Part shown: piece by piece, positions 5,634-23,563 of the stretch
How positions within the stretch are numbered: position 1 is the first letter of the stretch
How the letters are laid out: each line of letters begins with the position of its first letter
Source of the DNA: Aurantiacibacter rhizosphaerae
GTDB taxonomy: Bacteria > Pseudomonadota > Alphaproteobacteria > Sphingomonadales > Sphingomonadaceae
Length of the DNA stretch: 64,000 bases
Assembly: GCF_009807005.1 (NCBI RefSeq)
Contig: NZ_WUBR01000002.1
Coordinates: 868,001 to 932,000 of the forward strand
Direction of reading: 5' to 3'
The notes under the pieces: generated by a model
The model's database searches: none
Seen by the model: only the letters and a program-made list of their open reading frames with translations
What the model was told of the DNA's origin: nothing
Made by a program: the position numbers and the translations under genes

Positions 5634-7754
5634 TCAATCCACCAGCATGAGCGCATCCAGCGCGATTACGCCCTGCCCCAGCGGATAGACGATCACCGGG
5701 TTCAGATCGACTTCGCGGATGGAGGGGTTGCCCACCATGATCCGGCCCATCGTCACGATCATTTCCGCCAGCGCGTCCACATCCAAAGCCGGGCTTCCGC
5801 GCCAGCCGGTGAGAAGGGGCGCCTGCTTCAATTGCAGCAGCCCTTCCCTCACCTGCTCCTCACCCAGATCGGGGGTAAACAGCTTTACATCCTTCAGGAT
5901 TTCCGCGGTCACGCCGCCGAACCCTGCCAGCACTACGGGCCCCCATTGCGGATCGTGCTTGGCGCCCACGATCATCTCTGTGCCCATCGTGCCCATCTTT
6001 TCCACCAGTACGCCGTCCAGGCTGATGCTGGCGTCATAGGCGGACACGTTGCCATACATGCGATCGAACGCCTCGCGCACGTCATCGGCGGATTTCAGGT
6101 TCAGGATCACCCCGCCCGCATCGCTCTTGTGGCCAAGCGCGGCGGCCTGCGCCTTCATGACGACGGGATAGCCCAGCGCATCGGCAGCAGCGGCAGCATC
6201 GTCTGCCGTGGCGGCAAAGGTGCTTTCGGGGAACGGCACGCCCAGCGGGCGCAGCAGGTCCTTCGCGCGATATTCGGGGATCACGCCGCTTTCGCCATCG
6301 ATCCCTTCAATCTTTATCGCCTTTACCGAGCAGTCCGACAGGTCGCGCTTGGCAAGGTCTGCCAGCCGCGCGATGGCGCGATATGCACGCTCGGTAGAGG
6401 GGAAATAGGGAATGCCGACGCGGGCGAGCCCCTCTATATATTTCTCCGGCACATTCGCGCCTTCATCGACACCGGCGAACACCAGCGGCTTGCCCAGATC
6501 GCGGCCGTCCAGCACCTTCTGGATGGCGGGAAACTTGATCTCGCTCGTGATGGGGTCGGACTGGATGATGGAGGCCACCACGCTGCCGATCCGCTCATCC
6601 TCAAGCAACGCGGTGAGGAGATTGGTGTAGATCTCCGGCTCCGACAGGCCGATCGCGGTGATGTCCGTGGGGTTGGAGACAGGCACGAAATCGGGCAGCA
6701 CTTCGCGCAGTTTCGGGCTGTTCTCGTCGTTCAGCTCGATCAGGTCGAGGCCAACGTCCTGCGCCAGGTCAAAGGCAAGGCCGCGCAATGCGCCGCTTTC
6801 GCCCAGCACCGCCATATTGGCACCCGGCAATGTTTCGCAGGTGACGGCGATGGTGGCGATGTCGCCCAGCTCTTCCAGCGTATCTGCAAAGATGATGCCT
6901 TCGCGGATCAGCTTGGCCTTCATCAGCGCATAGTTGCCTGCCATTGCGCCCGTGTGGGTGGCGGCGGATTCCTGTGCCTTGTCGCTCTTGCCGGGGTGCA
7001 GCATCACGATGGGCTTGCCAGCTTCCCGCGCGCGGCGCGCTGCGGCGATGAAAGCCTGCGGACGGCGGAAATTCTCCACATACATGGCGATCACGTGCGT
7101 GGCGGGATCATCCACCAGCCATTCCACGTAATCCTCCACGCCCGATGCCGCCTCATTACCGGTGGAGACGGAGGTGGAGACATAACAGCCGCGCGGGTGC
7201 AGCGTGGTGGCCAGCACTGCTGCCAATGCGCCGGACTGGCTCGCGATACCCACTGCCCGCGCGCCTTCGGGCGGGGTCTTCATGTTGGTTTCCACGAAGG
7301 TAAGCGGAATACGCTCCACATAGTTCGTGCAGCCGAGGCAATTGGGGCCTTCGATGATAATGCCATGCTCTTCGGCGATGCGCGCCAATTCGGCCTGGTC
7401 CTTCGCGCCTTCCTCTCCCGCTTCGGAGAAGCCGGCGGCATAGATCACCACGGCGCCGCAGCCGTTTTCGGCCAGGTCTCGCACGGTCTGCACCACGAAG
7501 GGGCGCGGGATCGCCAGAACGGCGCAGTCCACGCCTGCGGGCAGTTCCTTTACATCCTTGTAGACCTTCAGGCCTTGCAACTCGTCCCGCTTGGGATTCA
7601 CCGGGTAAACATCGCCATCGAATTCATACTGCACGAGGTTGTTCAGCAGCGTGCAGCCCAGAGCGCCATGACGGTCTGACGCGCCGATGACGGCCACCGA
7701 TTTGGGGCGCAGCAGGCGATCGATCTGTTTGTTGGTGAAGCGGCGGGTGGTCAT
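5634..7754 (-). CDS. ferA: Feruloyl-CoA synthetase (ADP-forming acyl-CoA synthetase type)
   Basis: The 706-residue protein is an NDP-forming acyl-CoA synthetase: an N-terminal CoA-binding Rossmann domain (SVAVIGASDR), a succinyl-CoA-synthetase-like middle part (GIASQSGALAAV), and a C-terminal ATP-grasp domain (LGYPVVMKAQAAALGHKSDAGGV). This is the family of Sphingobium FerA, which activates ferulate, p-coumarate, caffeate and sinapate to CoA thioesters. The identification rests on family plus context: it lies directly behind ferB and divergent ferC, the same layout as known ferC-ferBA clusters. I chose the start at 7754 (MTTRRF) because AGGGG lies nine bases upstream; an ATG at 7763 is possible. 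Confidence 0.85.
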   Translation of the reverse strand: MTTRRFTNKQIDRLLRPKSVAVIGASDRHGALGCTLLNNLVQYEFDGDVYPVNPKRDELQGLKVYKDVKELPAGVDCAVLAIPRPFVVQTVRDLAENGCGAVVIYAAGFSEAGEEGAKDQAELARIAEEHGIIIEGPNCLGCTNYVERIPLTFVETNMKTPPEGARAVGIASQSGALAAVLATTLHPRGCYVSTSVSTGNEAASGVEDYVEWLVDDPATHVIAMYVENFRRPQAFIAAARRAREAGKPIVMLHPGKSDKAQESAATHTGAMAGNYALMKAKLIREGIIFADTLEELGDIATIAVTCETLPGANMAVLGESGALRGLAFDLAQDVGLDLIELNDENSPKLREVLPDFVPVSNPTDITAIGLSEPEIYTNLLTALLEDERIGSVVASIIQSDPITSEIKFPAIQKVLDGRDLGKPLVFAGVDEGANVPEKYIEGLARVGIPYFPSTERAYRAIARLADLAKRDLSDCSVKAIKIEGIDGESGVIPEYRAKDLLRPLGVPFPESTFAATADDAAAAADALGYPVVMKAQAAALGHKSDAGGVILNLKSADDVREAFDRMYGNVSAYDASISLDGVLVEKMGTMGTEMIVGAKHDPQWGPVVLAGFGGVTAEILKDVKLFTPDLGEEQVREGLLQLKQAPLLTGWRGSPALDVDALAEMIVTMGRIMVGNPSIREVDLNPVIVYPLGQGVIALDALMLVD

Positions 7755-7830
7755 CGGTGTCATCCCCTGAAGGCATGCCAAACCCCGGACATACCGGGGC
7801 AGCGTGATGTCGGATTTTCTAGACAGGTGC

Positions 7831-7858
7831 GGCGGCGCGAACAAGCGCCCGCGCCGCC
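7831..7858 (-). promoter_or_regulatory. GC-rich intercistronic hairpin between ferB and ferA
   Basis: GGCGGCGCG (7831-7839) and CGCGCCGCC (7850-7858) form a perfect 9-bp stem with a 10-base loop in the 123-base ferB-ferA gap. There is no T-run on either strand, so it more likely attenuates or stabilises the mRNA than terminates it. Confidence 0.4.
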
Positions 7859-7877: not shown

Positions 7878-8741
7878 TTAGTCCTTGCTGATCTTGGTCT
7901 TGTCGAACGCGCCAAGGCCGGGCTTGAAGGTCTTCTCGTCAAGGAACTGCTTGGTGGCTTCCTTGCGGGTTTCCCAGCCGCCGAAATCATTCAGCGCTTC
8001 CTGCGTGCGGATCAGGTAATCCTCGGCATTGTCATAGGTCATTTCCATGACGCGGCGCATCGCCCACTTGGTGGCGCGCAGGGCCTGGCTGTCCTTGGCC
8101 TTCAGCTTGTCGGCAACCTCGGTAACGCGGGCCTTCAGCTGGTCGTCAGGCACGCATTCGGTGACGAGGCCCTGTGCTTCGGCCTGCTTTCCGGTGAGGT
8201 TTTCACCCATCATCGCGTGATACATGGCCTTGCGATAGGGCATCAGGTCAGCCGCCACCTTGGATGCGCCGCCGCCGGGCAGGATGGCCCAGTTGATTTC
8301 GGAAAGGCCGAACTGCGCGCTTTCACCGGCAATCGCGATGTCGCAGGCGAACAGCGGGCCGTAAGCGCCGCCAAAGCACCAGCCGTTGATCATGCCGACG
8401 GTGGCCTTTTCATACCAGCGCAGGCGTTCCCACCAGGAATAGGCTTCTCGCTGGTGCTGGCGAACCTTGTGCAGGCCTTCCTGTTCGGCGTGGCGGAAAT
8501 ATTCCAGCAGATCCATGCCGGCAGACCATGCATCGCCCTCGCCCGTCAGGACCAGGACCTGCACGTCGTCACGGAATTCCAGCTCGTCCAGCACTACGCC
8601 CATCTGGCGGTTCAGCTTGGGGCTCTGGCAGTTCTTTTTGTCGGGACGGTTGAGCGAAACCCAGGCGACGCCGTCAATCACTTCATACTTGACGGTTTCT
8701 TCCTGCGGACGGGGATCTGGTTGCGATGGGCCTTTTGCCAT
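7878..8741 (-). CDS. ferB: Feruloyl-CoA hydratase/lyase (p-hydroxycinnamoyl-CoA hydratase/lyase)
   Basis: The 287-residue crotonase-family enzyme hydrates feruloyl-CoA and cleaves it to vanillin and acetyl-CoA. Seen: SLNRPDKKNCQSPKLNR at the N-terminal edge, the oxyanion-hole region SAGMDLLEYFR, NGWCFGGAYGPLFACDIAIA, and FGLSEINWAILPGG, all characteristic of the hydroxycinnamoyl-CoA hydratase/lyase subgroup rather than fatty-acid enoyl-CoA hydratases. The start at 8741 has a strong GAGGAGA site six bases upstream. It is first in the ferBA operon and is transcribed away from ferC across a 119-base promoter region that contains an inverted repeat. Confidence 0.92.
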   Translation of the reverse strand: MAKGPSQPDPRPQEETVKYEVIDGVAWVSLNRPDKKNCQSPKLNRQMGVVLDELEFRDDVQVLVLTGEGDAWSAGMDLLEYFRHAEQEGLHKVRQHQREAYSWWERLRWYEKATVGMINGWCFGGAYGPLFACDIAIAGESAQFGLSEINWAILPGGGASKVAADLMPYRKAMYHAMMGENLTGKQAEAQGLVTECVPDDQLKARVTEVADKLKAKDSQALRATKWAMRRVMEMTYDNAEDYLIRTQEALNDFGGWETRKEATKQFLDEKTFKPGLGAFDKTKISKD

Positions 8742-8860: not shown

Positions 8861-9286
8861 ATGGATGATCCACTCGCCCGATACCCCGGCTATTCCCTGC
8901 GCCGCGCCGCCAATGCGACGGGTGCGCAGCTGAGCGTCCGCCTTGCCGATCTCGGCTTGCGGCAGGCCGATGCATCGGTTCTGCTGATCCTGGAGAACAG
9001 CCCCGATATCACCGCCAGCGCGCTGGGCCGGCGGCTGGATATCCAGCGCGCCAACATGGTGCCGCTGCTGAAACGCATGGAAGAGGGCGGCCTGATCCAG
9101 CGGCGCGCGATAGACGGAAAATCGCAAGGCCTTGCCCTGACGGCGAAGGGTCGCAAGGCGCGCAATGCTGCGCAGGAGTGTATCGAGGGTTTTGAAAACG
9201 AACTGCTGGCCCGCGTGCCCGCCCAGCACCGCGCCCACCTGCTGCCTGCCCTGAACGCCCTGTGGCATGACGACGGCGCATCCTAG
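8861..9286 (+). CDS. ferC: MarR-family transcriptional regulator of ferulate genes
   Basis: The 141-residue protein carries a MarR winged helix: ITASALGRRLDIQRANMVPLLKRMEEGGLIQRR (about 47-80) is the recognition helix and wing, with IDGKSQGLALTAKGRK as the wing tip. It is divergent from ferBA, matching the known arrangement in which a MarR repressor releases the operon on binding hydroxycinnamoyl-CoA. A candidate operator lies at 8823-8838. The gene is followed after 61 bases by ligA and may be co-transcribed with it. Confidence 0.85.
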   Translation: MDDPLARYPGYSLRRAANATGAQLSVRLADLGLRQADASVLLILENSPDITASALGRRLDIQRANMVPLLKRMEEGGLIQRRAIDGKSQGLALTAKGRKARNAAQECIEGFENELLARVPAQHRAHLLPALNALWHDDGAS

Positions 9287-9347: not shown

Positions 9348-10594
<1,247 letters not shown>

Positions 10595-10695
10595 GTCTGG
10601 GCCGAAGCCTATCCTCGGCAGTTGATTGACAATGTCCGGTAGAGGCACGATCTAGCGTGCACACTGCCGCCCATCGTCACTGCCGAGGACCATCA

Positions 10696-12042
10696 ATGAC
10701 CGATCAGCCCACCGCCGCCGACCTTTCCGCCGATATTGCCCGCGTGTTCGAAGCGCAGCAGGCCAACCAGTGGAACGTGAAGGCCAGCGATGCCGCCGCG
10801 CGCAAGGCGAAGCTGCAAAAGCTGAAAGATGCGGTGGAAAGCCACACCGACGAAATCGTCGCCGCCGTGCTGAAGGATACGCGCAAGCCTGAGGGCGAAA
10901 TCCGCGTGACAGAGGTGATGAATGTGGTGGGCAATATCCAGCTCAACATCGATAATCTGGAAGAGTGGATGAAGCCCGAAGAGGTGACGCCCACCAACAA
11001 TCCGGACGACAAGGCGATGATCATGCCCGAAGCGCGCGGCGTGTGCCTGATCCTTGGCCCGTGGAACTTCCCCCTCGGCCTCACGCTAGGCCCCGTGGCT
11101 GCGGCGATTGCGGCGGGCAACACCTGCGTGGTGAAGCTGACGGATCTGTGCCCCAATGTGGCCAAGGTGGCCAAGCTGATCGTCGAGGAAGCCTTCGACG
11201 AGAACGAATGCGCCGTGTTCGAAGGCGATGTCTCCGTGGCGGAGGCTTTGCTGGAACTGCCCTTCAACCACATCTTCTTCACCGGCAGCACGCGCGTGGG
11301 CAAGATCGTGATGGCCGCAGCGGCAAAGCACCTTGCCACCGTGACGCTGGAGCTGGGCGGCAAGTCCCCCGTCATCATCGACGAAGGCGCCGATATCGCA
11401 CCTATTGCCGCCGCGCTGGCAGGGGCGAAGCAGTTCAACGGCGGTCAGGCGTGTATCTGCCCGGACTATGTCTTCGTGCCGGAAGGCAGGCAGGCCGAAC
11501 TGGTGGAGGGGTTCAGGCAGAATGTGCAGAACAATCTCTATGGCTCTGGCGAACTGGACAAATCCGCCATCGCGCAGATCGTGAACCAGACCAATTTCGT
11601 CCGGGTGAAAGGCATGGTGGACGATGCCGTAGGCCAGGGCGCGACGGTGGCCGTGGGCGGGGAGATGGACGCTGATGACCTCACCATCCATCCCACCATG
11701 CTGACGGACGTGACCCCGCAGATGAAAATTCTGCAGGACGAAATCTTCGCGCCCGTCCTGCCGGTGATGACTTACGAGACGCTGGATCAGGTGATCGATT
11801 ATATCGAGGCGCGGGCAAAGCCTCTGGCGCTCTACATGTTCTCCCCGTCGGAGGAGAATATGGACAAGGTGCTGAAACGCACCAGTTCAGGCGGCACCAC
11901 GCTGAACGGCGTGTTCTCCCACTACCTTGAAAACCGCCTGCCCTTCGGCGGCGTGAACGGCAGCGGCATGGGCAGCTATCACGGATACTGGGGCTTCAAG
12001 GAATTCAGCCACCACCGCGCCGTGTACAAGCATATGGCATAG
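10696..12042 (+). CDS. NAD(P)-dependent aldehyde dehydrogenase, candidate vanillin dehydrogenase
   Basis: The 448-residue aldehyde dehydrogenase belongs to the coniferyl-aldehyde/class 3-like group. Catalytic residues are visible: Asn124 in GPWNFP, general base Glu219 in TLELGGKSP, and nucleophile Cys253 in NGGQACICPDY. The start at 10696 has GAGGAC eight bases upstream; an earlier in-frame start at 10657 lacks one. It lies 101 bases after ligB and just downstream of ferCBA, so oxidation of the vanillin made by FerB to vanillate is the natural role, as with LigV. Coniferyl aldehyde or another aromatic aldehyde is also possible. Confidence 0.8.
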   Translation: MTDQPTAADLSADIARVFEAQQANQWNVKASDAAARKAKLQKLKDAVESHTDEIVAAVLKDTRKPEGEIRVTEVMNVVGNIQLNIDNLEEWMKPEEVTPTNNPDDKAMIMPEARGVCLILGPWNFPLGLTLGPVAAAIAAGNTCVVKLTDLCPNVAKVAKLIVEEAFDENECAVFEGDVSVAEALLELPFNHIFFTGSTRVGKIVMAAAAKHLATVTLELGGKSPVIIDEGADIAPIAAALAGAKQFNGGQACICPDYVFVPEGRQAELVEGFRQNVQNNLYGSGELDKSAIAQIVNQTNFVRVKGMVDDAVGQGATVAVGGEMDADDLTIHPTMLTDVTPQMKILQDEIFAPVLPVMTYETLDQVIDYIEARAKPLALYMFSPSEENMDKVLKRTSSGGTTLNGVFSHYLENRLPFGGVNGSGMGSYHGYWGFKEFSHHRAVYKHMA

Positions 12043-12889: not shown

Positions 12890-14008
12890 TCATTCCTCTT
12901 TGCCAGGCAATGCCGGAGATGGCCGGCCGATTGACAGCTCGGCTTCGGAGAAGCGGATCGGCGTGCGCAGGCCCTTCAGCCCGTCCTCGTCCAGATCCAC
13001 CACCATTCCGCGCGCCGCAATCTGCGGATCGGTCAACGCCTGCTTCACCGTGTTGATCGGACCGGCAGGAATGCCCCTGTTCTCCATCTTCAGCAATACG
13101 TCCTCCCGCTTCATCTCGGCAATACGCTTCATGATGGAGGCGGACAGCGATACGCGGTTCTTCACGCGGCGGGCGTTGGTCGTCCATTCCTCGCGCAAGG
13201 GCAGGTCTATCGCCTCGCAGAACCGTTCGAACTGGCGATCATTGCCCACCGCCACGATCAGCCAACCGTCCCTCGCCTGAAAGGCTTCGTAAGGGGCGAT
13301 GTTGGGATGGGCATTGCCCATGCGCTTTGGGCTGCGGCCGGAGGCGAGGTAGTTCATCGCCTGATTGCCCAGCGTGCCCACCATCACATCGAACAATGCC
13401 ATGTCCACCATCTGCCCGCGCCCGGTGCTTTCGCGCTGGCGCAGCGCCGCCTGGATGCCGATCACGGCGTAAAGCCCGGTCATGATATCGGCATAGGCCA
13501 CGCCGATCTTGTTGGGCGGGCCATCGGGCGTGCCGGTCAGGTCCATGATGCCGCTCATCGCCTGGATGATGATGTCGTAACCCGCGCGGCCCGCGTAAGG
13601 GCCATCCTGCCCGAAACCGGTGATGGAGCAATAGACGAGGCGCGGATTGACCTCTTTCAGACTATCGTAATCCAGCCCGAACTTGGCGAGGCCGCCGGTT
13701 TTGAAATTCTCGATCAGCACATCGGCATCGGCGATCAGGGCATGGACTTTCTTGAGGTCGGCCGCGCTGTTGAAATCGGCGACCATCGTATCCTTCCCGC
13801 GGTTTGCGGCGTGGAAATAGGCCGCATCCTTGGTGCCGTTCTCGCGGTCGATGAAGGGCGGGCCCCATTGGCGCGTGTCGTCCCCGTCCGGGCCTTCAAC
13901 CTTGTGCACCTCCGCGCCCAGATCGGCCAGGACCTGCCCGGCCCAGGGTCCTGCCAGAATGCGTGCGAGTTCGACGACCTTGATGCCGTGCAGTGGAGAA
14001 TTGCTCAT
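12890..14008 (-). CDS. CaiB/BaiF family (class III) CoA-transferase
   Basis: The 372-residue protein moves CoA between carboxylic acids. Seen: N-terminal Rossmann part with ELARILAGPWAGQVLADLGA, the catalytic Asp174 in GVAYADIMTGLYA, and the C-terminal segment RGIPAGPINTVKQALTDPQ. The family includes formyl-, succinyl-, glutarate- and benzylsuccinate-type transferases, and sequence alone does not fix the substrate. It lies directly after the amidohydrolase-family gene (58-base gap) on the same strand and near aromatic genes, so an aromatic or dicarboxylic acid from that pathway is plausible. Glutarate for GcdH is another option. Confidence 0.85.
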   Translation of the reverse strand: MSNSPLHGIKVVELARILAGPWAGQVLADLGAEVHKVEGPDGDDTRQWGPPFIDRENGTKDAAYFHAANRGKDTMVADFNSAADLKKVHALIADADVLIENFKTGGLAKFGLDYDSLKEVNPRLVYCSITGFGQDGPYAGRAGYDIIIQAMSGIMDLTGTPDGPPNKIGVAYADIMTGLYAVIGIQAALRQRESTGRGQMVDMALFDVMVGTLGNQAMNYLASGRSPKRMGNAHPNIAPYEAFQARDGWLIVAVGNDRQFERFCEAIDLPLREEWTTNARRVKNRVSLSASIMKRIAEMKREDVLLKMENRGIPAGPINTVKQALTDPQIAARGMVVDLDEDGLKGLRTPIRFSEAELSIGRPSPALPGKEE

Positions 14009-14066
14009 GGCCGCGCTCTACGCGGCGCGAGCCTTCAGGTAAACGGGCGGGTGTTGGACACCGTAA

Positions 14067-15104
14067 TTACTCGGGCGCGATGTGGAAGACCCGCTCCGCA
14101 TTGCCGTGGCACAGGGCGTGGCGTTCTGCATCGGTGCATTCGAAGTTCTCGATGAAGTCCACCGCCGGTTTCATCGGCTGGTAGGGGTAATCAATGGCCC
14201 AGATCACATTGTCGATGCCCATCCGGTCTATCGCATATCGCAGCGCCAGCGGGTCTTCCACGCCGCTGGTGGTGAAGACGAAATTGTCGCGGAAGTATTC
14301 CTCCATGCTGCGCTGTGTTTTCGGTGCACGGCCAACCTTTTGCGCGCGGCTGTTCATGAAATTTATGCGCCAGATGAAGAACGGCACCATCTCGCCCATG
14401 TGGCCCACGCAGATGCGCAGCTTGGGGAAATGATCGAACACGCCGCCTGCCATCATGCGCAGCATGTTGGTGCCCACTTCCACGCCGTATGCCCACATGG
14501 CCGAATCCATCGCATAGTCCATCAGCGGGCCCTTCAGCGTATCGGATGGCCCGCGCGGGTGGATGTAGATGGTGGCATCATGCGCCTCTGCCGCCTCGAA
14601 GATGGGCCAGAATTTGGGATCGTCGAAATAGTCGCCATTGGTGTGACCGTTCACGATCAGGCCGTTCAGCTTCAGATCGGTCATCACCCGGTCGATTTCC
14701 TTCGCCGCGCGCTTCGGGCTGTGCGGTGCAAAGCTTGCCAGACCGGCAAAGCGATCAGGGCGCTTGCGGCAGATTTCCGCCAGCCTGTCGTTACTTAGCG
14801 CGGCAAGTTCTGTTGCCGTGTCAGCATCGAACATCTGCACGCCGGGCGCCGTCAGGGTGAGCAGGTGCATGTCCACGCCAAACTCGTCCATCTGCGAAAG
14901 CCGCTGGCCTTCAACGTCCTTCAACCCTTCCAGGAAGTTCATCTTGCCATAGCCGCTGGCATCGTGATCGGCATCGTAGATCCCGCCTACCAGCAGCTTG
15001 TCAGCGCTTTGCGACGGCCCGCGTGCAACCTGGCGCAGTTCTTCGGCAACTTCGGGGATCGTCCATGCTTCCTCGCAGGCGATCAGGCGGCACTTGTTTC
15101 CCAT
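14067..15104 (-). CDS. Amidohydrolase-2 family protein, decarboxylase-like (LigW/gamma-resorcylate decarboxylase type)
   Basis: The 345-residue TIM-barrel metalloenzyme carries the ACMSD/LigW-type metal set: EEAW at residues 11-14 in place of the usual HxH, His in NGHTNG and YIHPRG, VGHMGE, and Asp in WAIDYPYQ. This pattern is that of non-oxidative aromatic decarboxylases such as 5-carboxyvanillate decarboxylase and gamma-resorcylate decarboxylase. 4-Oxalomesaconate hydratase (LigJ) has the same fold but a different N-terminal motif. The gene is divergent from an AraC regulator and followed by a CoA-transferase, suggesting a small inducible pathway for an aromatic acid. Substrate unknown. Confidence 0.75.
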   Translation of the reverse strand: MGNKCRLIACEEAWTIPEVAEELRQVARGPSQSADKLLVGGIYDADHDASGYGKMNFLEGLKDVEGQRLSQMDEFGVDMHLLTLTAPGVQMFDADTATELAALSNDRLAEICRKRPDRFAGLASFAPHSPKRAAKEIDRVMTDLKLNGLIVNGHTNGDYFDDPKFWPIFEAAEAHDATIYIHPRGPSDTLKGPLMDYAMDSAMWAYGVEVGTNMLRMMAGGVFDHFPKLRICVGHMGEMVPFFIWRINFMNSRAQKVGRAPKTQRSMEEYFRDNFVFTTSGVEDPLALRYAIDRMGIDNVIWAIDYPYQPMKPAVDFIENFECTDAERHALCHGNAERVFHIAPE

Positions 15105-15206: not shown

Positions 15207-16193
15207 ATGCGTTCTGCTGCGCCACCAACGCCAGCGTCCAGGGACATCGAAAGCTGGACATCCGCCGGGCTTGCCGGGCCGGAAGCTTTGCGCGAATGGC
15301 GCGAGTGGGCGGCCAGCACGATTGCTCCCATCGAAGTGGAGGTTTTCGACCCCCACGCCTTTGCCGCGCGCTGGATCAGCCACGGTATCGGGCAGCTGCG
15401 CCTGCTGCATCTTTATGCCCCCGCACAACGGGTGACGCACACGGGGATGGAGGGCAGCGCAGGCCGCGCCGCGCCATCCATCCAGCTGGTATATTCCCGT
15501 CACGGTGCGGTGAAGACGCTGATGGGCGGCAAGAGCTTTACCATCGAGCCGGGCCAGTTCGTGCTGCTGGACAACACCCGCTTCTACCAGATGGAAATGC
15601 AGACCGAGCATGAGTGTATCGACCTGATGATGCCGCAGGGCTGGCTGGAAAAGCATCTGCCCGATCCCGGCGCCCTGCTGGCAAAGCCGATCAACACGCG
15701 GGAGGGATGGGGAAAGCCGCTGGGCGCCCTGCTGGAAACCATGCTGGACAGGCTGGCCGATGCCCCCCTGCCGCGCCCCCTGATCGCCGAACAGGTGGGA
15801 ACCTTGCTGGCGTTGGCCACCGGCGTGCAGGAACCGCCACACGCCACGCGCCATCGCGGCCAGCTGGCCCGGCGTATCCTGCGCCGGATCGAAAGCGATT
15901 ATGCCGATCCCGCCCTCTCGCCAGAGCGGGTGGCGCGTGATTGCGGCATATCGAAACGCTATCTGCAAACCTTGCTGGCGGGCAGCGGCACCAGCTTCGT
16001 GCAGGAATTGAACGTGATGCGGCTAGACCGGGCCAGCGATATGCTGGCCGATCCGCGCGCGGCGGGACTGGCCGTGGCCGATATCGCCTTTCGCAACGGG
16101 TTTCTCGACCCCGGCTATTTCACCCGGCTGTTCCGCAAACGCTTTGGCGTAACCCCCAGCGCGTGGCGCGCGGGCCATGCCCCGCAAAGCTGA
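15207..16193 (+). CDS. AraC-family transcriptional regulator
   Basis: The 328-residue protein has an N-terminal AraC-binding-like cupin domain (VKTLMGGKSFTIEPGQFVLL, about 95-120) and a C-terminal double HTH: SPERVARDCGISKRYLQTLL (about 238-257) and VADIAFRNGFLDPGYFTRLF followed by RKRFGVTPSAWR (about 290-320). The cupin domain usually senses an aromatic or other small ligand. It is divergent from the decarboxylase-like and CoA-transferase genes and upstream of the hydrolase and kinase/carboxylase block, so it could control either or both. No clear ribosome site precedes the ATG at 15207. Confidence 0.85.
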   Translation: MRSAAPPTPASRDIESWTSAGLAGPEALREWREWAASTIAPIEVEVFDPHAFAARWISHGIGQLRLLHLYAPAQRVTHTGMEGSAGRAAPSIQLVYSRHGAVKTLMGGKSFTIEPGQFVLLDNTRFYQMEMQTEHECIDLMMPQGWLEKHLPDPGALLAKPINTREGWGKPLGALLETMLDRLADAPLPRPLIAEQVGTLLALATGVQEPPHATRHRGQLARRILRRIESDYADPALSPERVARDCGISKRYLQTLLAGSGTSFVQELNVMRLDRASDMLADPRAAGLAVADIAFRNGFLDPGYFTRLFRKRFGVTPSAWRAGHAPQS

Positions 16194-16199
16194 TCGGCC

Positions 16200-17105
16200 G
16201 TGCTGAAATTCGCCTTCGCGCTGATCGTGGTGATCATGCTGGCCGTGCTGGCGCTGGGCATCGCCTACAAGATATCGCCGCTGCGCACCTTCGATACGCT
16301 GGTGCCCAAGGATGATGGCGGGCGCAAGATTGCCGAGGGTCTGGCCTATGGCAATGATGCGCGCCAGGCGCTGGATATCTACGCACCGACGACACCCGGC
16401 GATGGTCTGAACACCGATGATCTGCGCCCCGTGGTGGTGTTCTTCTACGGCGGCAGCTGGGACAGCGGCACGCGGGAGGGATATAATTTTGCAGGCCGCG
16501 CCCTTGCCGCGCGCGGTTTCGTGGTGGCCGTGCCCGATTATCGTCTGGTGCCGCAGGTTCACTTCCCCGCATTCGTGCAGGATGGCGCGGCAGCGGTGCA
16601 CTGGGTGCGGCAGAATATCGCGCACTATGGCGGCGATCCCGATCGTATCGTGCTGATGGGCCATTCGGCAGGCGCCTATATCGCCGCGATGCTGGCAACG
16701 GATCCGCAATGGCTGGGCGATGATGAACGCACTGCTGTGCGCGGATTTGTTGGGCTGGCCGGGCCCTATGATTTCGCGCCGCTGGATACCGCTGCCTCCA
16801 TCAATGCATTTGGCGATTGGCCGGGTGTGGAGGAGACGCAGCCCATTACCTTTGCCGATGAGGGCGCGCTGCCCGCCCTGCTGCTTACCGGCACGGAGGA
16901 TACGGTGGTGAAACCGCGCAATAGCGAAGCTTTGGCCGCCAAGTTGCGCGCTGCGGGCGTGGCGGCGCAGATGGTGCGTTATCCCGGCATCGATCATGTC
17001 GGCGTGCTGATCGCCATGTCCCGCCCCTTGCGCGGGCGTGCGCCGGTGCTAGATGATGCCAGCCGCTTTATTGCCAGCGTTACCGGGCCCTTACCTGACC
17101 AGTAA
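16200..17105 (+). CDS. Alpha/beta hydrolase with N-terminal membrane anchor
   Basis: The 301-residue protein begins with one hydrophobic helix (residues 4-24), so it is probably periplasmic and tethered. The rest is an alpha/beta-hydrolase-3/BD-FAE-like esterase: oxyanion motif VVFFYGGSWDSG, nucleophile elbow GHSAG, a distal acid in LLTGTEDTVV, and His in GIDHVG. The likely chemistry is ester hydrolysis, for example of an esterified phenolic. A GTG start at 16200 lies six bases after the AraC stop without a strong ribosome site, so translation is probably coupled to araC. It precedes the kinase/carboxylase operon by 155 bases. Confidence 0.8.
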   Translation: MLKFAFALIVVIMLAVLALGIAYKISPLRTFDTLVPKDDGGRKIAEGLAYGNDARQALDIYAPTTPGDGLNTDDLRPVVVFFYGGSWDSGTREGYNFAGRALAARGFVVAVPDYRLVPQVHFPAFVQDGAAAVHWVRQNIAHYGGDPDRIVLMGHSAGAYIAAMLATDPQWLGDDERTAVRGFVGLAGPYDFAPLDTAASINAFGDWPGVEETQPITFADEGALPALLLTGTEDTVVKPRNSEALAAKLRAAGVAAQMVRYPGIDHVGVLIAMSRPLRGRAPVLDDASRFIASVTGPLPDQ

Positions 17106-17260: not shown

Positions 17261-19111
17261 ATGTCGGACAAAGCCAAGAGCTTTCCCCTGCCCAGCTCAC
17301 TGAAAGTGACGCCGGGCACCGAAGAGGCGCAGGCCGCCTTCCCCTATTACTGCCAGTTCCAGCCGGGCGACGACGAGCGGTTCTGGTTCTACAACTCCAT
17401 GCATTTTCCAGAGCCGATGCATCATTTCGATATGATCACGGCGGAGGCTGCCTATTGCGCGCTGGGCGCGTTCAACACCCGCGTGCACGTGCTGCCCACC
17501 ACCAAGGGCATCGATCACCGCATCATCAACGGCCGCGTTTTCATCGGCGGCGTTCCCGTCACCGATCCTGAAGAGGTGCAGGCCCGCGCGGAGGAATTCC
17601 AGAAACGCGGCTTCCATTATTACGAGCATTGGGAAGACCTGTACGACCAGTGGAAGGACAAGATGAAGGCGCTGATCGCGGAGGCGAAGGAACTGCCAAA
17701 GCCGCACCTTCCCGATCTGGAGCCGATGGAAACCACGCTGACCGGCAAGGGCATCGCCGCCAACCAGGAACTGATCGACACCTACCGCCGCCAGCTGAAC
17801 GGCTATTACACGATGTGGCACCACCACTTCGAATTCCTGCTGCTGGGCTATGGCGCCTACATGACCTTCTTCGATTTCTGCAAAAAGGCCTTCCCCGAAA
17901 TCTCCGACCAGGCGATCAGCCGCATGGTTGCGGGCATGGAAGCGGAAATCTTCAAGCCTGACGAGGAAGTAAAACGCCTCGCCCGCCGCGCGGTGGAACT
18001 GGGCGTGGACCAGCATTTCACGCCAGACATGGATATCGACACCGTGCTGGCCGATCTCGACAAGGTGGGCGGCCCCGGCAAGGAATGGCTGACCGAGCTC
18101 GAGACCAGCCGCAACCCGTGGTTCAACGTGAATGTGGGCGACGGGTTCTACCACTATCACCGCAGCTGGAACGACGACCTGTCGATGCCCTTCGCCGCGC
18201 TTCCCGGCTATATCGAGAAGATCAAGGCCGGCACCAATATCGAACGCCCGATGGATCAGCTGATCAAGGAGCGGGACGAGATGGTGCGCGACTATCGCGA
18301 GCTTCTCGATACCGAGGAAGACAAGGCAACATATGACCAGCTGATCGAACTGGCGCACCGCGTGTTCCCCTATGTGGAGGGGCACAAGTTCTATTGCGAG
18401 CACTGGTACACCAACCTGTTCTTCAACAAGATCCGCGAATTCGGCACGCTGTTGGTGGAGCACGACTTTTTCGAGAAGGAGGAGGATGTCTTCCATCTCA
18501 CCCATTACGAATTGGAGAGCGCCATCATCGACCTGATGCTTTCCTGGTCCTCCGGGTCGCCCCCGATAGGACCGTCTCGCTGGCCCGCTATCGTAAAACA
18601 ACGGCAAGAAGCCATCGATAGCTGGGCCGGCGAGACCGTACCGCCGGCATTGGGACAGGTGCCCGAGGCCATAGACGATCCCGCCATCGTCATGCTGTGG
18701 GGCATCACTCGCGACAGCCTGGATACGTGGCTTTCCGATGGTGAGGGCGATCCCAACGAGCTGAAGGGCTTTGCCGCCTGTAATGGCGTGGTGGAAGGCA
18801 CCGCGCGTGTCATCAAGTCGGTGAAGGAGATCTACAAGATCCAGCAGGGCGATATCCTGGTGTGCCAGGTGACGAACCCCACCTGGTCCCCCCTGTTCCA
18901 GAAAATCAGCGCGGCGGTTTCCGATATCGGCGGCAGCATGAGCCACATGGCCATCGTGGCCCGCGAATACGGCCTGCCCGCCGTGGTGGGCACCGGCAAT
19001 GCCAGCCAGAAGATAAAGGACGGCGCGCGCATCCGCGTGGATGGCGGCAAAGGAACGGTCACGATCCTGGAACAGCCTGCCGAAGCGCAGCCGGAACTGG
19101 AGGACGCCTGA
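17261..19111 (+). CDS. PEP-synthase-like aryl kinase, large subunit with phospho-histidine domain
   Basis: The 616-residue protein ends in a PEP-utilising mobile (phosphohistidine swivelling) domain with the motif GGSMSHMAIVAREYGLPAVV, giving predicted phospho-acceptor His562. The N-terminal 450 residues resemble the substrate part of phenylphosphate synthase alpha-type proteins and lack the PEP-binding TIM barrel of true PEP synthase, so pyruvate is not the acceptor. With the next gene (ATP-grasp part) it forms a split dikinase that would phosphorylate a phenolic hydroxyl. Downstream biotin carrier, carboxyltransferase and phosphatase genes match acetovanillone/4-hydroxyacetophenone catabolism (AcvAB, HpeHI). 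ATG at 17261 has GAGAGGA upstream; longer in-frame extension is unlikely. Confidence 0.8.
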   Translation: MSDKAKSFPLPSSLKVTPGTEEAQAAFPYYCQFQPGDDERFWFYNSMHFPEPMHHFDMITAEAAYCALGAFNTRVHVLPTTKGIDHRIINGRVFIGGVPVTDPEEVQARAEEFQKRGFHYYEHWEDLYDQWKDKMKALIAEAKELPKPHLPDLEPMETTLTGKGIAANQELIDTYRRQLNGYYTMWHHHFEFLLLGYGAYMTFFDFCKKAFPEISDQAISRMVAGMEAEIFKPDEEVKRLARRAVELGVDQHFTPDMDIDTVLADLDKVGGPGKEWLTELETSRNPWFNVNVGDGFYHYHRSWNDDLSMPFAALPGYIEKIKAGTNIERPMDQLIKERDEMVRDYRELLDTEEDKATYDQLIELAHRVFPYVEGHKFYCEHWYTNLFFNKIREFGTLLVEHDFFEKEEDVFHLTHYELESAIIDLMLSWSSGSPPIGPSRWPAIVKQRQEAIDSWAGETVPPALGQVPEAIDDPAIVMLWGITRDSLDTWLSDGEGDPNELKGFAACNGVVEGTARVIKSVKEIYKIQQGDILVCQVTNPTWSPLFQKISAAVSDIGGSMSHMAIVAREYGLPAVVGTGNASQKIKDGARIRVDGGKGTVTILEQPAEAQPELEDA

Positions 19112-19114
19112 GCC

Positions 19115-20161
19115 ATGGAAGCCGTTGCGTGGTTTGCCGATGTCGGCATCAAGGATCGCCCCACCGTGGGCGGCAAGGGTGGCTCTCTGGGTGAATTGAC
19201 GCAGGCCGGGATCGATGTGCCCGCAGGCTTCGTCGTCACCGTGGCCGCGTTCGAGCAGTTTCTGGAGAAGCTGGAGGAGAAGGAACCGATCCGCCCGCTG
19301 GTCGAGGCGCTCGACCCCGACGATCTGGGCGCAGCGACGAAATTATCGGAGCAATTGCGCGCCCGTATGATGGGCGATGAAATGCCGGCCGAGGTGAAGG
19401 ACGCGCTGAAATCCGCCCATGCGCAGCTTTGCGAGGATGGCCAGCCGGTCGCCGTGCGATCCTCCGCCACCACGGAAGATGCGGAGGACGCCAGCTTTGC
19501 CGGATTGCAGGACACCTTCCTGTGGGTGCTGGATGCAGACGCCATGATCGCACGCACCCGCGAATGCTGGGCCTCGCTCTATTCGGTGGAGTCCATGACC
19601 TACCGCCGCAAGCAAGGCATTCCGGAAAGCCGCGTGGCGATGGCCGTGGTGGTGCAGCGCATGGTCAACTCCCGCTGCGCAGGCGTGATGTTTACCCGCA
19701 GCCCCACCACCGGCGACAAGTCCGTGATCACCATCGAGGGTGCATGGGGCCTGGGCTCCAGCGTGGTGTCCGGCGAGGTTACGCCCGACAAATGGGTGCT
19801 GGGCAAGATCACCGGAGAGATCAGCCAGCGCGACATTTCCGACAAGCACGCACGGCAGGTGCCCGCGCCGGAGGGCGGCGGGATCGTGGAGGTGGAGAAC
19901 GAGGACGACAAGCGCTCCGCCCCATGCCTCACCGATGATGAACTGCTGGCTTTGCGCGAAGTGGGCCGCAAGATCGAACGCCATTATGGCAAGGCGCAGG
20001 ATATCGAATGGGCGCTGGATCAGGATGGCAAGGTGCTGCTGCTCCAGTCCCGCCCGGAAACCGTGTGGGCTATGAAGGACGCGGAAAGCGCGCCCGTGAA
20101 GAAGCCGGAGGGCAAGGCATACAACCACGTGATGGCGATTTTCGGAGGCAAGAAATCGTGA
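19115..20161 (+). CDS. PEP-synthase-like aryl kinase, ATP-grasp (PPDK N-terminal) subunit
   Basis: The 348-residue protein is the pyruvate phosphate dikinase N-terminal ATP-binding domain on its own. Seen: GGKGGSLGELTQAGIDVPAG, the ATP-binding motif AVRSSATTEDAEDASFAGLQ, QRMVNSRCAGVMFTRSPTTGD, and a C-terminal LLQSRPETVW. It would use ATP to charge the histidine of the neighbouring large subunit. It starts 3 bases after the large-subunit stop, and its stop overlaps the GTG of the biotin carrier gene by 3-4 bases. The split matches phenylphosphate synthase and the hydroxyacetophenone kinases. Confidence 0.85.
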   Translation: MEAVAWFADVGIKDRPTVGGKGGSLGELTQAGIDVPAGFVVTVAAFEQFLEKLEEKEPIRPLVEALDPDDLGAATKLSEQLRARMMGDEMPAEVKDALKSAHAQLCEDGQPVAVRSSATTEDAEDASFAGLQDTFLWVLDADAMIARTRECWASLYSVESMTYRRKQGIPESRVAMAVVVQRMVNSRCAGVMFTRSPTTGDKSVITIEGAWGLGSSVVSGEVTPDKWVLGKITGEISQRDISDKHARQVPAPEGGGIVEVENEDDKRSAPCLTDDELLALREVGRKIERHYGKAQDIEWALDQDGKVLLLQSRPETVWAMKDAESAPVKKPEGKAYNHVMAIFGGKKS

Positions 20162-20658
20162 GCCTTTCGGGCAAGGACGTCGCTGAAATCGCGCGGCTGC
20201 TGGGCGAATCCGAATTTTCCTCGCTCGACCTGAAGATGGGCGGCTTCACGCTGCGCATCCGCCGTGATGGCAGCAGCGGTGGCCGCTGGGTGGCTGATGA
20301 AGTCGAGGTTGACGAGCCAGACCAGCAGGACGAGCCGCAAGGCTCCGCCGGTGTCGAACCGTCCCCCTCCCCGCCGCCATCGGGCAGCGCGCAGCCGGCC
20401 ACTGTGGCAGATGCAGGGGAAGTGGACGTGATCGCCCCGCTGCTGGGCAATTACTACGCCGCCCCGCGCCCCGGCGAAGCCCCCTTCGTACAGGTGGGCG
20501 ACCGCGTGGAGCCCGATACGATCGTCGCCATCATCGAGGTGATGAAGCTGATGAACTCGGTGCGCGCCGGGGTATCGGGCACCGTCACCGCCGTCCTGGC
20601 GGAAAACGGCAGCGCCATTGAAAAGGGCCAGCCGATCATCAGGGTGAAGGAAGGCTGA
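20158..20658 (+). CDS. Biotin carboxyl carrier protein (AccB-like)
   Basis: The 166-residue protein has an AccB-like N-terminus (DVAEIARLLGESEFSSLDLK), a Pro/Glu-rich linker (about 45-85), and a C-terminal biotinyl domain with the biotinylation site EVMKLMN, Lys130. It starts with GTG overlapping the kinase stop (GTGA) and ends in TGATG overlapping the carboxyltransferase start. It is therefore a dedicated carrier for that carboxyltransferase rather than the housekeeping acetyl-CoA carboxylase carrier, whose partner accC would be expected adjacent. Confidence 0.88.
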   Translation: MSLSGKDVAEIARLLGESEFSSLDLKMGGFTLRIRRDGSSGGRWVADEVEVDEPDQQDEPQGSAGVEPSPSPPPSGSAQPATVADAGEVDVIAPLLGNYYAAPRPGEAPFVQVGDRVEPDTIVAIIEVMKLMNSVRAGVSGTVTAVLAENGSAIEKGQPIIRVKEG

Positions 20659-22118
20659 TGGCCAATATCCAGATCGTCGAAACGTCCCTTCGCGATGGCA
20701 ACCAGTGCCTGTGGGGCGCAACCGGCATCGATACCGCAAAGACACTGGGCATTGCCCCTGCGATGGAGCGGGCGGGCTTCTCCGCGATCGATTTCACCAC
20801 CTCCACCCACATGGGCGTGGCCGTGCGTTACAAGCAGGAAGACCCGTGGGAACGCATCCGCGCGATGGCGGACATCTGCAAGACCACGCCGCTGCAATTC
20901 CTCTCCACCGGTTTCCGCTTCATCGCGTGGGAAACCGCGACGCCTGATTTCATGGAACTGGCCTTTGCCACGCTGGCGCGCAACGGCATTCGCCGCTTTG
21001 CACTGGCCGATCCCATGAACGATGCCACGTCCAACGTGGAAGTCGCGAAGATGGTGAAGCGTGCTGGCGGGGAGCAGGTGGTGGGCGCCCTCGTCTTCTC
21101 CATCAGCCCCATCCACGACGATGTGCATTATGCCGAGGCCGCGCGGACGATGGCCGCCAGCAAGGATATAGACGCGCTCTATATCAAGGATCCGGGCGGG
21201 CTGCTGACATCCAATCGCGCCGCAACGTTGGTGCCCGCCATCATGGCCGAGATTGGGGACATGCCGCTGGAACTCCATTCGCACTCCACCATCGGCCTTG
21301 CCGAACAGGCCTATTGCGAAGCCGCCGACATGGGCATCACCGCGCTGCAATGCGCCAGCGGCGGGCTTGCCAGTGGCACCTCCCATCCTTCTGTCATAGG
21401 CACGGTCGCCAACCTTCGCGCGCAGGGCCACACCGTCGATATTGATGACGAGGCGGTGGATGAAATCGCCGACTGGTTCACCGCCATCGCCGATGCGGAA
21501 GACCTGCCCAAGGGACAGGCGATGCATTTCGATGCCGCCTATTTCCAGCACAATTTGCCCGGCGGCATGGTGGGCACCATGCGCCGCCACCTGGCCGACC
21601 AGGGCGTGCCCGAAATGGAAGGCGCGGTGATAGAGGAGATGGGCCGCGTGCGCCGCGAACTTGGCTGGCCCATCGTGATGACGCCCTTTGCCCAGATGCT
21701 GCAGACGCAGGCCGTGATGAACGTGACGGCGGACGAGCGATGGAGCGTGATCCCCGACGAGATCATCCGCTTTGCCATCGGCAAGTTCGGGCGGCCCAAT
21801 GCGCCGGTGGACCAGAACGTGATGGACCGCATCATGGCCAATCCGCGCACCAAGGAACTGGAAGCGGAAAAGGGCATGGCCGACGTTGCCGACCTTCGCA
21901 AGAAACTGGGCATGCACCTGTCGGACGAGGAATTCCTGCTGCGCGCCACCATGCCGCAGAACCTTGTCGACGCGATGGAAGAAACCGGCCCCGCCCAGCG
22001 CGAATACGATCCGAAAAAGGTGCCGCTGATGAACCTGTTGCGCGAGGTGTTGCAACGCGGTGATATCGACGAATTCAGCATTGAGAAGGACGATTTCTCC
22101 GTCCAGCTTGAGCGTTGA
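20658..22118 (+). CDS. Pyruvate/oxaloacetate carboxylase-type carboxyltransferase subunit
   Basis: The 486-residue protein is a carboxyltransferase of the HMGL-like/PYC-OADA group. The metal site is intact: Asp13 in SLRDGNQ, a carbamylatable Lys177 in YIKDPGG, and His207/His209 in LELHSHST. It would pass carboxyl from biotin to the methyl group of an acceptor. In the Acv/Hpe logic the acceptor is a 4-phosphorylated aryl methyl ketone, giving a phospho-aroylacetate. The substrate-facing residues differ from pyruvate carboxylase (LRDGNQCLWG instead of LRDAHQS). A biotin carboxylase subunit is absent from the cluster and from the whole window. Confidence 0.82.
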   Translation: MANIQIVETSLRDGNQCLWGATGIDTAKTLGIAPAMERAGFSAIDFTTSTHMGVAVRYKQEDPWERIRAMADICKTTPLQFLSTGFRFIAWETATPDFMELAFATLARNGIRRFALADPMNDATSNVEVAKMVKRAGGEQVVGALVFSISPIHDDVHYAEAARTMAASKDIDALYIKDPGGLLTSNRAATLVPAIMAEIGDMPLELHSHSTIGLAEQAYCEAADMGITALQCASGGLASGTSHPSVIGTVANLRAQGHTVDIDDEAVDEIADWFTAIADAEDLPKGQAMHFDAAYFQHNLPGGMVGTMRRHLADQGVPEMEGAVIEEMGRVRRELGWPIVMTPFAQMLQTQAVMNVTADERWSVIPDEIIRFAIGKFGRPNAPVDQNVMDRIMANPRTKELEAEKGMADVADLRKKLGMHLSDEEFLLRATMPQNLVDAMEETGPAQREYDPKKVPLMNLLREVLQRGDIDEFSIEKDDFSVQLER

Positions 22119-22240
22119 AAGCAGCCCGCTTTCCTACCTCCACGGCAATGCGCAGCTTATGGCCATGAAACCGCCAAATCTCTTTGAAATATCACACATT
22201 TCTGTCTTCGCGGGAGTGACCGTGATTCCTTCCCCTGGAC

Positions 22241-22258
22241 TGTGTTCCATGTGTTCCA
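22241..22258 (+). repeat. Tandem TGTGTTCCA direct repeat before HAD phosphatase
   Basis: Two adjacent exact copies of TGTGTTCCA occupy 22241-22258, 17 bases before the phosphatase start and within the 157-base gap after the carboxyltransferase. They may form a direct-repeat activator site, for example for an AraC protein, or be chance. Confidence 0.3.
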
Positions 22259-22275
22259 CATTAGGTGATCTATAG

Positions 22276-23094
22276 ATGCGCACGCCAAAGGGCTTCATGT
22301 TCGATCTGGACGGGACACTGATCCTCTCCAACCGCAAGCTGGGCAGCTATGACGCCATTCCCGGCGCGGCGGAGGCTCTGGCCGATCTGGACGCGCGCGG
22401 CATTCCGTGGATCGCACTGACCAACGGCAGCGCCTATGCCTCCCGCGTGCAGGCCCCGCGCCTACGCGATGTGGGCATCCCCGTGCCGGACGATAAGCTG
22501 TTCACCCCCAATTCGGTTGCGGCCAAGGTGATTGCCGACGCTGGATATGGACGCGTGCTGGTGCTGGGCACGCAGGGCGTCACCGATGCTCTGGAGGAGC
22601 TGGGCATCAACTGCGTCTCTCCAGATAGCGACCACGAGGGCTGTGACGCGGTGTACATCGCCTGGCATCCCGACTGCTCCATGCCCGATATCCACGCCGC
22701 CTGTGAGGCCGTGCTGGATGGCGCCGCCTTCCTCACCGCGTCGGATGTCCCCTTCTTCGCCACCAAGGAAGGCCGCAGCTTCGGATATAGCTGCGCCATC
22801 AACGGCGCGGTGGCGCGGGTAACCGGGGTGGAACCGCAGCCGACTGGCAAGCCTTCTGCCCATGCGCTGGCCTTCGTTGCCGATCGGCTTGGCATGGCGA
22901 AAGAGGATGTGGGCGTGGTGGGCGATGATGCCACCGCGGAAATCCAGATGGCGCGCGAAGGCGGGGCCATCGGCATCGCAGTAACATCAGGCTCCACCAG
23001 CGCGGATGAATGGGCGCAGCAGCCCGATAACAAGACGCCCGACCTGGTGATCGAGAATATCGGCGAATTGGCGAGGCGCACCGGATTGGGCTAA
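22276..23094 (+). CDS. NagD-type HAD phosphatase
   Basis: The 272-residue haloacid-dehalogenase phosphatase of the NagD/PGP type has catalytic motif I FDLDGTL (nucleophile Asp10, acid Asp12), motif II with Thr-Asn (IALTNGS), a type II cap (about 85-185), and motif IV GVVGDDATAEI. Placed after the kinase/carboxylase genes it is the natural candidate for removing the phosphate from the carboxylated phospho-ketone, the step done by HpeD in the Hpe system. It is separated by 157 bases, so it may have its own promoter. A general phosphoglycolate/nucleotide phosphatase role cannot be excluded. Confidence 0.75.
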   Translation: MRTPKGFMFDLDGTLILSNRKLGSYDAIPGAAEALADLDARGIPWIALTNGSAYASRVQAPRLRDVGIPVPDDKLFTPNSVAAKVIADAGYGRVLVLGTQGVTDALEELGINCVSPDSDHEGCDAVYIAWHPDCSMPDIHAACEAVLDGAAFLTASDVPFFATKEGRSFGYSCAINGAVARVTGVEPQPTGKPSAHALAFVADRLGMAKEDVGVVGDDATAEIQMAREGGAIGIAVTSGSTSADEWAQQPDNKTPDLVIENIGELARRTGLG

Positions 23095-23119: not shown

Positions 23120-23563
23120 ATGCAGCTAGGCCGTTTCAACCACATCGGCGTTGCCGTGCCCGACATCGAGGAAGCCATTGCATTCTATCGCGATGTGCTG
23201 GGCGCAAAGCAGATTACAGAGCCTTTCGACCTGCCAGAGCAGGGCGTGAAAGTGTGCTTCGTCAACACGCCGGGCCATGACGGAACCGAGGGGACGCAGG
23301 TAGAATTGCTGGCCCCGCTGGACGAGACATCGCCGGTGGCCAATTTCATCGCCAAGAACCCGCTGGGCGGCCAGCACCACGTGTGTTTCGAAGTGCCGGA
23401 TATCGAAGCCGCGCGTGCCGAGTTCGAGGCTGCTGGCAAGCGCATCCTCGGCCCCACGCGCATTGGCGCGCATGGCACGCCGATCTTCTTCCTCCACCCC
23501 AAGGATATGCTGGGCCAGCTGACGGAAATCATGGAAAGCCCTAAGGAAGGCGCCCTGCATTGA
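23120..23563 (+). CDS. Methylmalonyl-CoA epimerase-like VOC protein
   Basis: The 147-residue vicinal oxygen chelate protein matches methylmalonyl/ethylmalonyl-CoA epimerase in length and pattern: RFNHIGVAVPDIEEAIAFYR, a Glu in GTQVELLAP, GGQHHVCFEVPDIEAA, and HPKDMLGQLTEIME. The metal set His/Gln-type, His and Glu is visible. The start at 23120 has AAAGGAG eight bases upstream. It converts (2S)- to (2R)-methylmalonyl-CoA in propionate assimilation, but no mutase lies beside it. Its stop overlaps the TTG start of the DUF3445 gene, so they are translated together. Confidence 0.85.
   Translation: MQLGRFNHIGVAVPDIEEAIAFYRDVLGAKQITEPFDLPEQGVKVCFVNTPGHDGTEGTQVELLAPLDETSPVANFIAKNPLGGQHHVCFEVPDIEAARAEFEAAGKRILGPTRIGAHGTPIFFLHPKDMLGQLTEIMESPKEGALH

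Follow-up and report, generated by a model that had tools for sequence, protein, structure and literature searches.

The gene block analysed here resembles two described hydroxyaryl-ketone systems, Acv and Hpe. PMC13101465 traces acvABCDEF, an operon of six genes in Sphingobium sp. (S. lignivorans) SYK-6, to record NC_015976.1, and it describes a MarK-initiated pathway in Novosphingobium aromaticivorans that is very like the Acv/Hpe route and begins with a one-component kinase. For Rhodococcus rhodochrous GD02, the available part of PMC9618137 describes the operon hpeHICBADEF, which encodes a two-component kinase, a biotin carboxyl carrier protein (BCCP), a carboxyltransferase (CT) and a NagD-type phosphatase, and which also holds a biotin carboxylase (BC) gene (hpeA), hpeE and hpeF. 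We analysed a stretch of 64,000 nt from Aurantiacibacter rhizosphaerae (contig NZ_WUBR01000002.1, positions 868,001 to 932,000; hereafter the window). It carries a five-gene block on the + strand with most of the features by which membership of the Acv/Hpe group can be judged: a two-component His-swivel/ATP-grasp dikinase, a BCCP and a PYC/OadA-type CT together with the kinase, and a NagD-type HAD phosphatase. The feature that is absent is a dedicated BC gene in the operon, and we therefore filed the block as a BC-less variant and not as a complete Acv operon. The missing gene is what makes the block a variant, a point that an earlier note on the same DNA did not contain. From a check of open reading frames and Pfam matches in the window, the block consists of:

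17261–19111, + strand: kinase alpha, predicted alpha subunit of a hydroxyphenylethanone dikinase, AcvA/HpeH-like (PF00391 and SYK-6 match)
19115–20161, + strand: kinase beta, dikinase beta subunit, AcvB/HpeI-like, ATP-grasp (PF01326, PPDK_N, E 8e-103)
20158–20658, + strand: BCCP, 166 aa, biotin site Lys130 (Biotin_lipoyl), of the type typical of BC-less operons
20640–20680, no strand: junction at the place of the BC gene in SYK-6; in the window, the stop of BCCP shares one base with the start of CT
20658–22118, + strand: CT, AcvE/HpeB-like (letter from gene position; HMGL-like and PYC_OADA)
22276–23094, + strand: phosphatase of the HAD-IIA (NagD) type, AcvF/HpeD-like (letter from gene position; Hydrolase_6)

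The earlier note had described a split kinase lacking the phosphoenolpyruvate (PEP)/pyruvate barrel, a biotin carrier, a CT with an intact metal site and a NagD-type phosphatase, and all of these were recovered. PF00391 (residues 527–598) was the sole Pfam match of kinase alpha, so the PEP/pyruvate barrel is absent. The protein comprises a substrate-binding region and a phospho-His swivel domain, in which His562 lies within SDIGGSMSH, in agreement with the T/SxxGGxxxH consensus for this kinase type given in the accessible part of PMC12167813; the ATP-grasp domain resides on the separate beta subunit. GTG 20158 is the likely start of BCCP: it overlaps the kinase beta stop as GTGA and would place the biotin lysine at position 130, as the note had it. 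In a reading extended to 20107, which was also used for the Biotin_lipoyl match, BCCP scored 102 bits against TIGR00531, under the cut-off of 115. The CT metal-site residues D13, K177, H207 and H209 are identical in 39 of 39 aligned CTs (those of 38 loci and the second CT of the window's genome), and the phosphatase scored 81 bits against TIGR01460, under the cut-off of 100. Only the description of the core as joined by overlaps of 1–4 bases needed correction: kinase beta and BCCP overlap by 4 bases and BCCP and CT by 1, but the two kinase genes lie 3 bases apart. CT and phosphatase are separated by 157 bases.

Judged by identity and gene order, the block corresponds to the SYK-6 operon of six genes, the closest characterised relative that we found, which bears out its placement as a variant of the Acv/Hpe system. 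Identities were 81% for kinase alpha (616 aa), 67% for kinase beta, 43% for BCCP, 72% for CT and 62% for the phosphatase, with 72% for the AraC-type protein encoded upstream. We infer that the SYK-6 locus (L041) is acvABCDEF, because the accessible text of PMC13101465 gives NC_015976.1 as the acv source, because L041 has the matching row of two kinase genes, carrier, BC, CT and phosphatase, and because a search of SYK-6 for BCs found only one further short-frame BC, which is AccC-like. Gene order, protein families and the upstream AraC type are common to both operons, and four of the five shared proteins are 62–81% identical. The differences are that in SYK-6 a BC gene (L041:8633–9997) separates BCCP from CT, two genes that overlap in the window, and that the BCCPs, the most diverged subunits of the block, are only 43% identical.

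The other systems compared are further removed. With the GD02 operon, the block has the two-component kinase, BCCP, CT and NagD-type phosphatase in common, by description only in the available part of PMC9618137, and it lacks counterparts of hpeA, hpeE and hpeF. Its two-component kinase also sets it apart from the MarK pathway as outlined in PMC13101465. An operon on plasmid pRlBT01c of Rhizobium leguminosarum (L077) encodes kinase alpha (52%), kinase beta (54%), BCCP, CT (50%) and a HAD enzyme in the same order as in the window, but it has a BC gene and, after the phosphatase gene, an acetoacetate–CoA ligase gene; its function is predicted only. According to the earlier note, closest relatives among phenylphosphate synthases or true pyruvate carboxylases would have spoken against its reading, and neither turned out to be closest. 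The phenylphosphate-synthase-type kinase of Azoarcus sp. KH32C (L078) is a homologous two-component kinase with 42.5% and 40% identity to that of the window, compared with 81% for kinase alpha in SYK-6, and it adjoins ppcABDG and UbiD-type genes, not BCCP and CT; a scan of proteins from the block and its flanking regions turned up no UbiD-type phenylphosphate carboxylase. A Rhodococcus ruber kinase (42% to kinase alpha) adjoins P450 and toluene-monooxygenase genes. The CT fell below the curated PycB/OadA cut-offs (best 294.7 bits vs 402), giving no assignment as pyruvate carboxylase or oxaloacetate decarboxylase.

A PF02785 search of the window's genome detected four BCs, on contigs C1, C3 (two) and C4, and none on the window's own contig, C2. 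The BC on contig C1 belongs to a complete cluster (L003:7201–14107) of UPF0261, BCCP, BC, CT, HAD phosphatase and AMP-ligase genes, and the genome apparently holds two ketone carboxylation systems. Residues 2–403 of the UPF0261 protein (403 in all) match PDB 9mpy. By analogy, we take this protein to be MarK-like, because MarK is the one-component kinase of a similar pathway (accessible text of PMC13101465) and the gene occupies the place of the kinase; 'Mar-type' is used here as a label of convenience. An AcrB/HlyD efflux pair adjoins the cluster. Aurantiacibacter xanthus (G015; locus L029, with L073 and L074) has a BC-less operon alongside two BCs resembling the one in the C1 cluster.

The absence of the BC gene is widespread. 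We compared 38 related loci (37 found by search, plus the window), leaving out two (L015 and L039) that end before the place of the BC gene and have no carrier; among the 36 assessable loci, BC was absent in 25, the window included, and present in 11. No BC pseudogene or remnant was found from 1500 bases before to 2600 bases after the CT start in the 27 loci in which no BC was seen (best E 1.1). In a family sample of 298 genomes, a CT at E ≤1e-160 was present in 28, with an adjoining Acv-type BC at the same cut-off in eight; a ninth BC match (G219) had no such CT alongside. The BC of G032, whose CT has the coordinates of L036, lies in two pieces and was missed at this cut-off, which brings the numbers to 9 of 28 genomes with an adjoining BC and at most 19 without, G292 and possibly G217 among the latter ending near the CT. 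In the match to the BC of Croceibacterium xixiisoli (L036:8484–9947), the two pieces are parted by an interruption that contains no stop codon. We found no title or abstract on BC-less operons, a search that did not extend to the original Acv and MarK papers or to the supplement of PMC9618137; the available part of PMC9618137 mentions gene clusters with varied combinations of hpe homologs.

For the five genes of the block, dN/dS against the nearest locus, L010, was 0.07–0.14, and the highest value over the six loci tested was 0.39 (BCCP vs L021). Given these low ratios, the genes of the block appear to be maintained. The best explanation for the pattern is that BC was lost from the operon, mostly in Erythrobacteraceae, the family to which most of the BC-less records with a family name belong. 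In a CT tree with L043–L045 as outgroup, BC-containing loci are basal to and around the BC-less loci. The BC label needs two changes on this tree and a single BC-less clade was not rejected (p-AU 0.143), so that one loss and two losses are both compatible with it. L025 has a BC and a carrier of the BC-containing type, yet its CT falls among those of BC-less loci.

The carrier differs along with the presence of BC. Relative to SYK-6, the ratio of BCCP to CT identity averaged 0.61 (0.56–0.68) in 24 BC-less loci and 0.76 (0.62–0.82) in 10 loci with BC. BC-less carriers are also more like AccB, the carrier of acetyl-CoA carboxylase, with a mean identity over the biotinyl domain of 44.0% vs 39.2% for carriers from operons with BC (L062, which has no AccB motif, was dropped from this comparison), and seven alignment columns were shifted toward AccB in the BC-less group against one shifted away. 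In an unrooted biotinyl-domain tree of 62 carriers (25 BC-less, 11 with BC, 23 AccB and 3 Mar-type; 75 columns), the four classes need three changes, which is the minimum, and carrier type tracks BC presence. BCCP type thus co-varies with the presence of BC. We rejected a replaced AccB as the origin of the BC-less carrier, since these carriers average 57.6% identity to Acv carriers with BC vs 44.0% to AccB.

Our favoured reading, which we consider probable though far from assured, takes the block for an operon of the Acv/Hpe type that acts on 4-hydroxyphenyl ketones, has lost its own BC and has its carrier charged in trans by a housekeeping protein, the AccC subunit of acetyl-CoA carboxylase. 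Likely substrates would be acetovanillone, 4-hydroxyacetophenone or acetosyringone. With the order of reactions carried over from published Hpe biochemistry, kinase beta and ATP would phosphorylate His562 of kinase alpha, from which the phosphate would pass to the phenol hydroxyl group; the CT would then use carboxy-biotin on BCCP to carboxylate the phospho-ketone at its acetyl methyl group, and the HAD enzyme would strip off the phosphate to yield an aroylacetate. Enzymes encoded elsewhere would split the aroylacetate, and the resulting aromatic acid could be taken on by the products of the nearby lig genes. AccC as the donor would be the simplest reading of the carrier comparisons above and of the BCs found elsewhere in the genomes. 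We searched 24 of the genomes behind the 37 loci, 19 with a BC-less operon and 5 with BC. Of the 19 BC-less genomes, 15 had a single short-frame (free-standing) BC, and in all 15 an AccB gene adjoins it, which identifies this sole free-standing BC as AccC.

Several results weigh against this reading. 'Free-standing' is defined by the length of the stop-to-stop frame only (short, 454–603 aa; long, at least 624 aa), and four of the 19 BC-less genomes depart from the one-AccC pattern: no AccC was seen in the available sequence of G004 and G006, G002 has further partial BC matches, and G015 has three further free-standing BCs, two of them similar to the C1-cluster BC and one other. The ranges of the BCCP/CT ratio overlap between BC-less and BC-containing loci; the shift toward AccB is modest (∼5 points), and its rank test (p 1e-5) overstates independence, the rows being related. 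The dN/dS of BCCP climbs to 0.29–0.39 when L017 and L021, which are more distant, are taken for comparison. All 24 readable BC-less carriers have a basic residue (23 R, one K) in the N-terminal strand, as against none of the 11 readable carriers with BC (L030 and L033, which yielded no N-terminal segment, were dropped), but R is also found in three of three Mar-type carriers, each from a stretch with a BC of its own. Since the Mar-type carriers have it too, the residue is no mark of AccC use, and we rejected it as a diagnostic AccC-binding motif. Lastly, the free-standing BC of the C1 cluster could serve the window operon instead.

That the C1-cluster BC (L003:11084–12484) supplies the missing subunit in the window's genome is suggested by the completeness of its cluster and by its 57% identity to the SYK-6 Acv BC, compared with 50% for the AccC of the window's genome. 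However, BCs more than 60% identical to it occur in only one of the 19 other BC-less genomes (G015). It can therefore be no general answer, and we regard it as unlikely. A donor could also be sought in the BC domain of the alpha subunit of a propionyl- or methylcrotonyl-type carboxylase, as long BC-containing frames (∼620–780 aa) are present in many of the searched genomes and a BC-domain match lies ∼4–6 kb downstream of the phosphatase gene in L018, L020, L021 and L037. Such adjacency was seen in only 4 of the 27 loci without an operon BC, though, and a long BC-domain frame probably has its own fused carrier, which makes this source decidedly improbable.

Propionibacterium transcarboxylase draws its carboxyl group from another metabolite. 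By the same principle, the BC-less enzyme might take its carboxyl group from another metabolite instead of from bicarbonate and ATP, moving it from a central metabolite such as methylmalonyl-CoA to the phospho-aryl ketone, with neither bicarbonate fixation nor a second ATP. The CT does match the transcarboxylase 5S subunit (E 1e-43), and a methylmalonyl-CoA epimerase gene comes after the phosphatase gene in 12 of the 27 loci where no BC was seen, against 0 of the 11 that have one. The CT is nonetheless a better match (E 1e-53) to subunits of oxaloacetate decarboxylase and pyruvate carboxylase, and no second copy of the epimerase gene was found in the genome, so that it is needed for housekeeping; we give such a transfer very little chance. 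Least probable of all is that the loss of a subunit gene which the enzyme needs reflects a decaying operon, or one diverted to kinase and phosphatase roles with a dead carboxylase, given that CT and a BCCP with the biotin motif are kept in 25 of 25 assessable BC-less loci, that the CT metal residues are kept in all, and that dN/dS is well below 1 in the six loci tested.

The surroundings of the block would fit a role in aromatic catabolism. The genes nearest to it, upstream and downstream, are:

5634–7844, upstream of the block: acyl-CoA ligase, ADP-forming type
7878–8741, upstream of the block: p-hydroxycinnamoyl-CoA hydratase/lyase (over model cut-off)
8861–9286, upstream of the block: MarR-like open reading frame (by inspection)
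9348–9752, upstream of the block: LigA-like open reading frame (by inspection)
within 9632–10594, + strand: class III extradiol dioxygenase beta subunit, LigB family (over cut-off; LigB genome search)
10657–12042, upstream of the block: aldehyde dehydrogenase
12890–14008, − strand: CoA-transferase family III, divergent (PF02515, E 1e-125)
14067–15104, − strand: Amidohydro_2 hydrolase, divergent (PF04909; no NCBIfam family)
15207–16193, + strand: AraC-family regulator, probably of the operon (AraC_binding_2 and HTH_18; 72% to the gene directly upstream of the SYK-6 operon)
16200–17105, + strand: alpha/beta hydrolase, BD-FAE/Abhydrolase_3 (Pfam), of uncertain pathway membership
23120–23563, + strand: methylmalonyl-CoA epimerase (TIGR03081, 135 bits, over the cut-off of 115), directly after the phosphatase gene

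The ferulate and protocatechuate genes that had been reported beside the block are present, as the ligase, hydratase/lyase, LigB-family dioxygenase and aldehyde dehydrogenase genes lie ∼5–12 kb upstream; from their family assignments, they would suit the onward metabolism of vanillate-type acids. An AraC-type gene is found upstream of CT on the same strand in 27 of the 37 other loci. Copies of the alpha/beta hydrolase gene (60–78%) stand directly before kinase alpha only in the closest relatives, L010–L014. We judged the epimerase, the single match in the window's genome, to be a housekeeping enzyme that is probably outside the pathway. For the last two steps, from aroylacetate to aromatic acid, no gene was found among the sequences compared, which did not include SYK-6 VceA/VceB (for which the source is the accessible part of PMC11837543). 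The two divergent genes at 12890–15104 are candidates for these final steps. Speculatively, the Amidohydro_2 hydrolase could be a downstream C–C hydrolase and the CoA-transferase could activate the aroylacetate with CoA. Copies of the former (72–94%) occur upstream in 14 and of the latter (67–84%) in 8 of the 26 other loci in which no BC was seen, and neither occurs in the 11 loci with BC, flank lengths differing between loci. Further along the window, a CoA ligase gene at 37355–39283 scores as acetate–CoA ligase, and the homogentisate 1,2-dioxygenase and fumarylacetoacetase genes at 33984–36556 are an unremarkable pair of tyrosine-type catabolic genes.

Charging of the carrier by AccC, if it occurs, would mean that the breakdown of lignin-derived ketones is also driven by a housekeeping subunit of fatty acid synthesis, and that moving such operons to another host requires a compatible BC. 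BC-less and BC-containing operons also provide a natural comparison for the use of a foreign BC by a carrier. Searches that demand all three carboxylase genes in each cluster would undercount the pathway, as the adjoining BC is present in 9 and absent from at most 19 of the 28 genomes.

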